Source: Promethearchaeota archaeon
Lineage (GTDB): Archaea; Asgardarchaeota; Lokiarchaeia; Sigynarchaeales; SOKP01
Assembly: GCA_004524515.1 (NCBI GenBank)
Contig: SDNV01000076.1
Location: 1-13,540 of the forward strand
Direction of reading: 5' to 3'
DNA: 13,540 nt
The stretch's first letter is position 1. Each line of letters opens with the position of its first letter. Made by a program: the position numbers and the translations under genes. This document shows, piece after piece, positions 3,957 to 8,366 of the stretch. The notes under the pieces were generated by a model. That model was not told the DNA's origin, made no database searches, and was given only the letters and a program-made list of their open reading frames with translations.

Positions 3957-4166
3957 AATCTTTCAATTTTTTTTTAGTTAATTTTAATGAGTATATTTTT
4001 TAAAAAAATTCAAACCTTATTAATAATATTTTCCATTCTTGCCTAATATTATGAATATAATTCTAATAATTTAATGAATCAATAAAGAGATTAAAAATTA
4101 TCTCATAGATAAAAGTAGAACTTCAATTATTTAATTCATTGAACTATTTAGAAAAACAGACAATTT

Positions 4167-4173
4167 AAAAAAA
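4167..4173 (-). terminator. Candidate oligo-U terminator after the CoA-transferase gene
   Basis: Seven consecutive T on the minus strand begin 18 bp past the stop codon of the CoA-transferase ORF. Such oligo-T runs are enough for archaeal termination; no stem is visible. Confidence 0.35.
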
Positions 4174-4190
4174 TTAGATCATTTAAAAGA

Positions 4191-5234
4191 TTAGATTAGT
4201 TTTTTCTTCTTCCATTTTTTCAAATCATTTTCCGAATATCCTAATAATTTAACATAAATCTCTTCATTATCAGCCCCAAATTCAGGGCCAGGAACCTCAA
4301 CCGAGCCTTTGGTTTCTGAAAAATTTATAAGCCTATTAGGTATAGTTGCTTTTTCGACATCCCATTTAGAAAAATCGAATTGATCGCATAACATCCCTCT
4401 TGCTTTAAGCTGAGGATGGTTATGGACCTCAAACATCGTTAAAGTTTCGCCGCACGGAATCCTTGCTGCTTCTAATTTTTTAATCGCCTCTTCTCTAGTA
4501 ACATTCTTGGTCCAATTTTCAATAATATCATCAAGTTCATCAACATGATAAAATCGCTTGATGGGGTTATCATATTTAGAATTTTTTGCCAACTCGGGGT
4601 TCTCTAATACATTTTCACAAAGTCTTTTCCATTGGTTCTCTGTGATAGTGGTAAAAGCCACTAATCCATCTTTAGTATGGTATTGATTGTATACAGGTAA
4701 AAATTTTGTGCCTAAATCCAATTTGGTTGCCATTGGCATAAATTCTTTAACTTGAGCTCTCATATTAATCGCAAACATGAGATCATGCATGGATATATCA
4801 ATAAATTGTCCTTTTCCTGTTTTTTCTCGGTAATATAAGGCTTGACTTATTCCTATAGCCGCAACATGACCTGCGGTATAATCTGCAATGGGTAATCTGG
4901 GAGGCCCTTCTTTTAAATCTAAAGCATCCAATATTCCAGCTTGCGCCTGAATAATTAAATCAAATGCTGGTTTTTGGATATACCTTTTTAAACCTTCATT
5001 TCCAAATCCAGAAATCTTCGCATGTATTAATCTTGGATTAATCTCCTTTAAAATATCATATCCTAATCCCCATTTTTCCATAGTTCCTGAAACGAAGTTT
5101 TCTACTAAGACATCCGATTTTTCCACTAGTTTTAAAAAAATTTCTTTAGCTCCCTCTTTTCTTAAATCTAAAGAAATTGATTTTTTCCCTCTATTTAAAA
5201 TACTAAATAAGGGAAAGAAGGTTTTATCAAACAA
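4191..5234 (-). CDS. CaiB/BaiF-family CoA-transferase, body of a gene with a disrupted 5' end
   Basis: A 347-residue ORF that matches family III CoA-transferases from their NRGKKSISLDL segment (residues 14-24) onward. It has SGFGNEG (75-81), PAFDLIIQAQAG (89-100), PIADYTAG (115-122) and GKGQFIDISMHD with the expected catalytic Asp at 151. The C-terminal part has IPCGETLTMFEV...HPQLKARGM. Such enzymes move CoA between carboxylic acids. The nominal TTG start at 5234 is unlikely to be real, because families begin some 50-60 residues earlier with a GP..A.LLAD.GAEVIKVEPP segment. That segment is present upstream in the same frame (5301-5399) but cut off by two stop codons. The gene is most likely a recent pseudogene or carries an assembly error; the intact remainder argues for recent damage. 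Confidence 0.85.
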   Translation of the reverse strand: MFDKTFFPLFSILNRGKKSISLDLRKEGAKEIFLKLVEKSDVLVENFVSGTMEKWGLGYDILKEINPRLIHAKISGFGNEGLKRYIQKPAFDLIIQAQAGILDALDLKEGPPRLPIADYTAGHVAAIGISQALYYREKTGKGQFIDISMHDLMFAINMRAQVKEFMPMATKLDLGTKFLPVYNQYHTKDGLVAFTTITENQWKRLCENVLENPELAKNSKYDNPIKRFYHVDELDDIIENWTKNVTREEAIKKLEAARIPCGETLTMFEVHNHPQLKARGMLCDQFDFSKWDVEKATIPNRLINFSETKGSVEVPGPEFGADNEEIYVKLLGYSENDLKKWKKKKLI

Positions 5235-5270
5235 AGTGAAAAGACGGATGGACTCGCCGAAAGGGGGTGG

Positions 5271-5300
5271 TTGTAGTACAGACGCTTAATGCGTTCAGAT
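5271..5300 (-). other. 30-nt stop-containing insertion in the CoA-transferase gene
   Basis: On the minus strand the reading frame runs GTA GAA (VE, ending 5301), then 10 codons including TGA (5297-5295) and TAA (5288-5286), then CCA CCC CCT TTC GGC (PPPFG, from 5270). Removing exactly 30 nt restores the expected VIKVEPPPFGESIR. The insert contains an inverted repeat, ACGC-ATTAA-GCGT, and GTAG at 5306-5303 can pair with CTAC at 5276-5273 around it. The frame is the same on both sides. Confidence 0.7.
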
Positions 5301-5399
5301 TTCTACCTTAATTACTTCGGCGCCTTGATCTGCGAAAAAGGTACATGCCCATGGACCACTAATGAATTCTACTCCTTTAGGCGATATGCCTATTCCATT
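5301..5399 (-). pseudogene. Detached N-terminal segment of the CoA-transferase
   Basis: In the same frame as the ORF at 4191-5234, this segment translates to KGVEFISGPWACTFFADQG followed by AEVIKVE. That is the N-terminal beta-alpha-beta signature of CaiB/BaiF enzymes. It has no in-frame start: a TAA at 5400-5402 precedes it, and the nearby ATG (5396-5398) is in another frame and meets TAG after one codon. The stretch between KG and GPW also looks several residues short for the family. So there appear to be two lesions, one near the start and the 30-nt insertion after it. A 5-bp inverted repeat (TAGGC...GCCTA, 5378-5392) sits at the first lesion. Confidence 0.65.
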
Positions 5400-5759
5400 T
5401 TATTTATATTATAGAAAGTGTGAGCAGTCCAATAAACGAATATCTTCAAAAATCTTCGGCAATCTATTTCCCTATTTAATCTAATTTTTTATAAATCTGT
5501 TGATTTGAATATTTGCTTTAAATTGCTAAAAATTAATAAATTTTCATATTACTTTTTGATAAGATTACCTAAACGAGAAGTTAAATTATTTTAAATCCTA
5601 ATCATAAAAAAATAGTTATAAATTATTAATTAATTGATTTAAAGTTCTCTAAATATTAATATTCAAGGCAAAATGGCTAATAATTTGAAGCTAATAATTT
5701 TTTAATTCAATATTTCTTATTTTCTTAATAGAAATCTATATGGAGATGATGATATAAAA
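5400..5759. other. Intergenic stretch, no gene seen
   Basis: About 360 bp of AT-rich DNA between the divergent CoA-transferase remnant and the small zinc protein. On the minus strand, TATAATATAAATA at about 5402-5414 may be the old TATA region of the CoA-transferase gene. I see no ORF with protein-like composition and no tRNA-like fold. Confidence 0.5.
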
Positions 5760-8233: not shown

Positions 8234-8366
8234 ACTTCGATAAGATTATGAATTTTTAATTAAACAATTACCATATCCTTAACTTTTTGATATCTAAATT
8301 AATGTTATATTTGTATACTATATTAAAATTGTTAATAAATCGATTCTATTTGATATAGTTATCCTA

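Follow-up and report, generated by a model that had tools for sequence, protein, structure and literature searches.

In the 13,540-nt stretch of Asgard DNA analysed here (the window), the reading frame of a CoA-transferase gene on the minus strand breaks off after ...GAEVIKVE and resumes at PPPFGESIR, and the 30 nucleotides in between (5300-5271; ATC TGA ACG CAT TAA GCG TCT GTA CTA CAA) place TGA and TAA in frame. Is such a gene dead, wrongly assembled, read across by the ribosome or spliced? The original prediction, made from the letters of the window, noted that exact deletion of this in-frame insert restores the family sequence and pointed to an ACGC-ATTAA-GCGT hairpin, its GTAG/CTAC flanks and two GTA codons, all of which are present. 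It preferred a recent pseudogene or an assembly error, named translational bypassing and a processed insert as speculative alternatives, and suggested comparing the locus in relatives. Our analysis supports the processed insert, in the form of an archaeal RNA intron of the bulge-helix-bulge (BHB) type.

A second insert, overlooked in that reading, carries stops and sits between LLDCS and FISGPW. With both inserts (A and B, in order of transcription) left out, the frame reads LPKIFEDIRLLDCSQFISGPWACTFFADQGAEVIKVEPPPFGESIR... and gives 396 residues, and the whole gene, of CoA-transferase family III (CaiB/BaiF type), occupies 4191..5462 on the minus strand. Exon 1 (5420..5462, 43 nt) opens with a TTG start at 5462 and encodes LPKIFEDIRLLDCS plus the first base of a Gln codon; intron A (5369..5419, 51 nt) is followed by exon 2 (5301..5368, 68 nt), which encodes QFISGPWACTFFADQGAEVIKVE, and intron B (5271..5300, 30 nt) by exon 3 (4191..5270, 1080 nt including the stop), which runs from PPPFGESIR... 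to ...KKKKLI. The 5' end had been held to lack an in-frame start, but the TTG lies beyond intron A. Against Pfam CoA_transf_3 (PF02515), the spliced product aligns over positions 2-366 of 366 and scores 320.2 bits, compared with positions 54-366 and 265.6 bits for the 347-aa open reading frame alone. All NCBIfam equivalogs scored below cut-off for the CoA-transferase product, and its substrate is for that reason left unnamed. We conclude that the gene is very probably intact, with two very small introns of the tRNA-intron kind inside it. Elsewhere on the minus strand of the window, 737-1450 and 1549-2235 encode adjoining, similar proteins of the metallo-beta-lactamase fold, perhaps a tandem duplication.

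A scan of contigs revealed two Lokiarchaeota loci, each with a 30-nt insert at the identical place and with different letters. Across 227 Asgard genomes, 28 loci were found, of which 15 are close orthologues, with identities of 69-77%, and the other 13 are more divergent. Insert B is present at the identical position in eight of the 15 close orthologues as well as in the window, and measures 30 nt in L001, L002 and L009 and 31 nt in L010, L011, L017, L018 and L019. Insert A shares its site with three of the 15 (L009, 32 nt; L010, 34 nt; L019, 33 nt), its length in the window being 51 nt, and the insert lengths in this gene (30-34 and 51 nt) take all three values modulo 3. Seven of the close orthologues have neither insert and read without interruption. 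Of the 13 distant loci, 12 are likewise uninterrupted, and in the thirteenth (L028) the match starts too late to be informative. Mapped onto a 24-sequence tree, insert B requires six changes, not below the number in most shuffles (85 of 500 as low). A well-supported pair (100/99), in which L008 lacks the inserts and L009 has both, shows a recent and exact gain or loss.

The comparison with relatives bears directly on the explanation first preferred for this locus. In-frame stops are what a recent pseudogene or an assembly error would leave behind, and the L019 orthologue has an extra frame lesion, yet the insert lies at the identical position in independent genomes, its structure covaries (see below) and the remaining frame of the window is intact. 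For the insert as such this explanation is already refuted, and we assign it a vanishingly small probability; because the position is kept among the close orthologues and the pairs covary, as the suggested comparison brought out, the insert is more than chance. The spliced frame of L019 (G127:C102) is cut short at 119 aa, by a frame lesion or by an indel of the assembly, downstream of both introns.

The annotated relatives show a related pattern. A protein database held 179 relatives past 1e-100, from which the best 120 were taken; 116 with at least 65% identity were kept and four dropped. Among these 116 listed relatives, the start falls at residue 10 or earlier in 60, at residue 17 in one, at residues 33-34 in five, at residues 45-62 in 39 (the class of the window's own open reading frame) and later in 11. 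Altogether, 56 of the 116 lack the N-terminus, with the start falling at residues 33-62 in 44 cases. Late starts are the expected behaviour of gene callers if intron B is widespread, and contig ends may explain some of them.

Both inserts fit the archaeal BHB motif, with a 4-bp helix between exon and intron, 3-nt bulges and junctions that restore the family sequence. On the minus strand, the central helix of intron A pairs exon GCTC (5422-5425) with intron GAGT (5371-5374), with AC^A as the 5' bulge and AG^A as the 3' bulge, and the intron ends in a terminal hairpin TAGGC-ATATC-GCCTA (5378-5392). Intron B pairs exon GTAG (5303-5306) with intron CTAC (5273-5276), with bulges AA^A (5') and AA^C (3') and the hairpin at 5282-5294. 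All four central pairs form in each of the two, and cutting the 3-nt bulges after their second base yields GTAGAA^CC (B) and GCTCAC^AA (A), in which the family sequence is restored.

Other copies of insert B repeat this anatomy: exon GUAG is matched by CUAY near the 3' end of the insert, three bases stay unpaired on each strand and a hairpin lies inside. Both sides are changed in L018 (GUGG/CCAU), and one central pair is lost in L002. For insert A, the partner of GCUC is GAGU, GAGU, GGGC or GGGU. Over the nine copies of insert B, 84.6% of cells are paired, against 17.9-47.3% when the structure is slid, and six pairs show changes on both sides. The covariation score of 0.348 (0.175 when shuffled) was reached by none of 500 shuffles, a test that is inflated by the kinship of the copies, so that the slid control carries more weight. 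The inner helix of intron B (helix 2), which adjoins the 5' bulge, has 79% of its cells paired; that of intron A is imperfect in several copies. Folding energy by itself would not have revealed these introns: z is -0.61 for intron B of the window (an equally good fold in 48 of 200 shuffles) and -1.64 for intron A, and the minimum-energy folds of L018 and L002 leave out the central helix.

The same pairing bears on translational bypassing, in which the ribosome would take off at GTA or GAA, skip the insert and land on a matching codon. T4 gene 60 and the mitochondrial byps are bypass elements of this kind, short, hairpin-bearing interruptions with stops, much like the inserts described here; in the window, moreover, GTA recurs at a distance of 27 nt, an arrangement that the original prediction likened to such elements. 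Unlike those elements, the inserts lack a conserved pair of take-off and landing codons: the codon before CCN, where the ribosome would land, is TAA in six of the nine B copies and CAA, AAT or TAC in the rest. Lengths vary, the same gene holds a second insert at an unrelated codon, and exon and insert pair exactly as splicing needs, in a conserved splice geometry. It is the GTAG/CTAC pairing, and not the repeated GTA, that suits a mechanism. We consider bypassing extremely unlikely. Readthrough was rejected as well, given that the stops differ and the lengths are not multiples of three.

The geometry extends beyond this gene. Our tabulated set contains 27 copies at eight sites in five genes, the eight sites being the independent units since copies at one site share ancestry. 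Four of four central pairs form in 21 of the 27 copies and three of four in the other six, L002 among them. The register was chosen among the few that the protein permits, partly by best pairing; the leading base played no role in that choice, and yet each bulge begins with A in all 27 copies. Where a site was discovered independently of the BHB rule, as four were, all four pairs form in 17 of 20 copies, compared with 35 of 1820 (1.9%) slipped registers. The outer helix, between exon and exon, has only 0-3 contiguous pairs in the 14 copies checked, and we accordingly propose a relaxed form of the BHB motif and do not claim the canonical hBHBh'. Nineteen of the 27 copies have five-base terminal loops, and 15 of these 19 end in UC, a mark common to introns of different genes.

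The near absence of an outer helix and the recurrent UC ending could instead point to excision from RNA by an undescribed mechanism, a different nuclease or a self-cutting RNA, possibly acting through the five-base loop. We know of no reason for a UC-ended loop in the known endonuclease, and Rfam covariance models, those of group I and II introns included, gave no match at gathering score in window 4100-5700; introns of 29-34 nt are too small for either group. Against such a mechanism, the central helix, the 3-nt bulges with their leading A and the cut after the second base (2^1) coincide with junctions that were set by homology. In addition, heteromeric (alpha-beta)2 endonucleases are described as tolerating relaxed motifs (PMC6379350). 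An undescribed mechanism appears to us very unlikely, if the least improbable of the rivals.

The two probable BHB introns of the window belong to a larger Asgard set, spread over the eight sites and five genes mentioned above. Among the matches listed, rtcB carries an intron in at least 7 of 227 genomes, at two different sites. At the first (GVGY^DINCG), L045 (G106:C222, about 700-760) and L092 (G143:C295) have a 29-nt intron with UUGG/CCAA, a nine-pair inner helix and the full motif. At the second (LPD^AHQGYGF), five loci (L113, L114, L115, L116 and L105, in G160, G081, G079, G080 and G078) have 30 nt with an in-frame stop, and the central helix is CCCG/CGGG in three copies and has one mismatch in two. 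The rtcB stop of L117 (G035:C198) was rejected as an intron: a single in-frame TAA (GRGKN*LGTLGSGNH) is present without any insert, a nonsense mutation or sequencing error. A separate observation concerns rtcB of G010, G030, G031, G032, G033 and G034 (L090, L091, L093, L095, L106), in which the match breaks near residue 50, close to the first intron site, and resumes about 1.5 kb further on within one open frame of about 780-1000 aa, an intein-like arrangement.

A porB-like gene has two intron sites only six bases apart. The downstream one (G002:C6:79408-79438, 31 nt) was suggested by the contig scan for BHB motifs and then confirmed by homology; once joined, its product shows no gap at the junction when aligned with a solved pyruvate:ferredoxin oxidoreductase beta chain. 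The upstream one was found by the phylum search in G001 (L187), G156 and G104. G001 and G002 are sister genomes (tree 100/100), and the different positions of their introns may reflect either intron sliding or independent gain. The search matched 66 of 227 genomes; it looked for introns chiefly at loci with a reported stop, and most intron-free calls depend on those stop reports. The gene itself is unusual (G002:C6:79300-80400; L187, L189 and others), as the C-terminal half of PorB (116-289 of 300) precedes an N-terminal-like stretch, and this swapped order is kept over about 340 residues in many relatives.

The remaining two genes are small, have no Pfam match and are called "coiled-coil-looking" and "CNLC-motif" as descriptive labels. 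The former has a 30-nt intron in G114, and its joined product aligns without a gap with one intron-free orthologue, in G002. The latter has a 30-nt intron in G124, where a tandem paralogue aligns ungapped across the junction; uninterrupted orthologues exist in G123 (89%) and G126 (88%), and the phylum search located the intron in G116 too, as well as in another copy of the gene in G124. A relative of this gene in G157 (L251), which has a stop and lacks the insert, was discarded.

How abundant such introns are per genome is not shown by our scans. BHB-like inserts in coding context were sought de novo, each time with the mirrored motif as a control. A 366-kb scan gave no excess (7 hits against 11 mirrored), a 1.5-Mb scan of three genomes gave 33 against 28 overall and 9 against 2 at a score of at least 18 (two of the nine overlapping), and both miss intron B of G002 with its three central pairs. 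Relaxed rules gave 106 against 125 mirrored hits at a score of at least 20, and requiring a leading A in both bulges gave 16 against 11 at the same score. In this leading-A scan, the three confirmed introns of the porB-like, coiled-coil-looking and CNLC-motif genes rank highest among the BHB hits of 26-36 nt; most other hits are probably chance. Two candidates of the 1.5-Mb scan, at 8314 and 146151 of G124:C1, were judged false, their unspliced frames looking natural. A covariance model of intron B (R1), run on the 227 genomes, recovered the eight known CoA-transferase loci strongly and ten others weakly (E 9.2e-4 to 0.099). Seven of these ten, all but L073, L078 and L080, were inspected: four lie in uninterrupted frames (L076, L077, L079, L081) and are probably chance, and three have no clear frame. 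R1 added no further convincing intron B-like site in the 227 genomes. ARAGORN, run on the contigs of relatives, reported five intron-bearing tRNAs of doubtful quality, which were set aside.

The enzymes that such splicing would call for are encoded by relatives of the window's genome. Eight intron-bearing relatives were examined, and all eight have two PF01974 tRNA-splicing endonuclease genes, both subunits of G002 matching solved tRNA-splicing endonucleases. RtcB, the ligase that joins exons after the endonuclease has cut, was found in seven of the eight, with no match in G001. In the transcript of the CoA-transferase gene, GCUC and GUAG at the ends of the two upstream exons would each pair with a four-base stretch close to where the respective intron ends, leaving a 3-nt bulge on each strand and the intron's own hairpin as the inner helix. 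The heteromeric endonuclease would then cut both bulges after the second of their three bases, RtcB would join the exons, and the 396-aa protein would be translated. Cutting and joining, and the part of these enzymes in both, we infer. Several observations weigh against a BHB reading, namely the weak outer helix, the folds of L018 and L002, the unremarkable energies, the three-pair copies, the missing RtcB match in G001 and the L019 lesion. BHB introns in mRNA are favoured on account of their anatomy, conserved position and covariation, the restored family sequence, the existence of sister genes with no interruption and the endonuclease and ligase genes of relatives. Judged from sequence, it is highly likely that the CoA-transferase pre-mRNA carries two minimal archaeal BHB introns and that its gene product is intact.

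The rules of the BHB motif, by which exon 1 and the intron form a short central helix accompanied by bulges, are given in PMC2738675, which also describes the nearest precedent, the BHB intron of crenarchaeal cbf5 pre-mRNA, cut between the second and third bulge residue by a hetero-oligomeric endonuclease, and dates its discovery paper to 2002. The Asgard introns resemble it in being short, within coding sequence and of BHB type, in sharing its cut, as predicted here, and in their patchy presence with lineage-specific loss, a hetero-oligomeric endonuclease being implicated in both. They differ in the genes affected (CoA-transferase, rtcB, porB-like and two small proteins) and the phylum, both new, in the presence of two introns in one gene, in a minimal and near-uniform length of 29-34 nt (one of 51), in the outer helix, mostly absent, and in the recurrent UC-ended loop. 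Splicing of cbf5 was demonstrated on RNA, whereas for the Asgard genes we infer it. A central helix with bulges and a weak or missing outer element is likewise described for relaxed HBh'-type archaeal tRNA introns, which broad-specificity endonucleases process (PMC6379350); those studied here lie in mRNAs, between codons or within a codon. Haloferax HVO_1309 carries its BHB intron in the 5' UTR (PMC7714728); this intron too is an mRNA substrate of the tRNA endonuclease, but it is situated in an untranslated leader, whereas here the coding frame depends on removal. That 2020 paper names cbf5 as the only mRNA example reported besides its own 5'-UTR case. For three complete Asgard genomes, PMC11291895 reports that 92-95% of the tRNA genes contain introns. 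Among the papers listed by searches of open-access full text, which leaves preprints and most subscription papers outside, no title or opening of an abstract reports BHB introns in Asgard coding sequences, and the extracts of PMC12397907, PMC12558985 and PMC12918454 do not mention Asgard mRNA introns.

Beyond the CoA-transferase gene, we tentatively propose, as possible rather than probable, that minimal BHB introns of about 30 nt form a dispersed and perhaps mobile family in Asgard protein-coding genes. The tRNA endonuclease would recognise them, a five-base loop ending in UC would be their mark, and they would have arisen many times over, often within codons of motifs under strong conservation. 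Two independent sites lie in rtcB, whose ligase would then be needed for splicing its own message; splicing capacity would in that case regulate itself, which suggests a feedback circuit. Gene models are affected already, as the truncated N-termini among the listed database relatives illustrate. Introns in archaeal coding sequences have been thought nearly confined to one gene, and their presence in several Asgard genes, some of them for central enzymes, would widen the reach of mRNA splicing by the tRNA machinery. Asgard archaea being the archaea closest to eukaryotes, this bears on what mRNA splicing may have been before the spliceosome, with no descent of one from the other implied.
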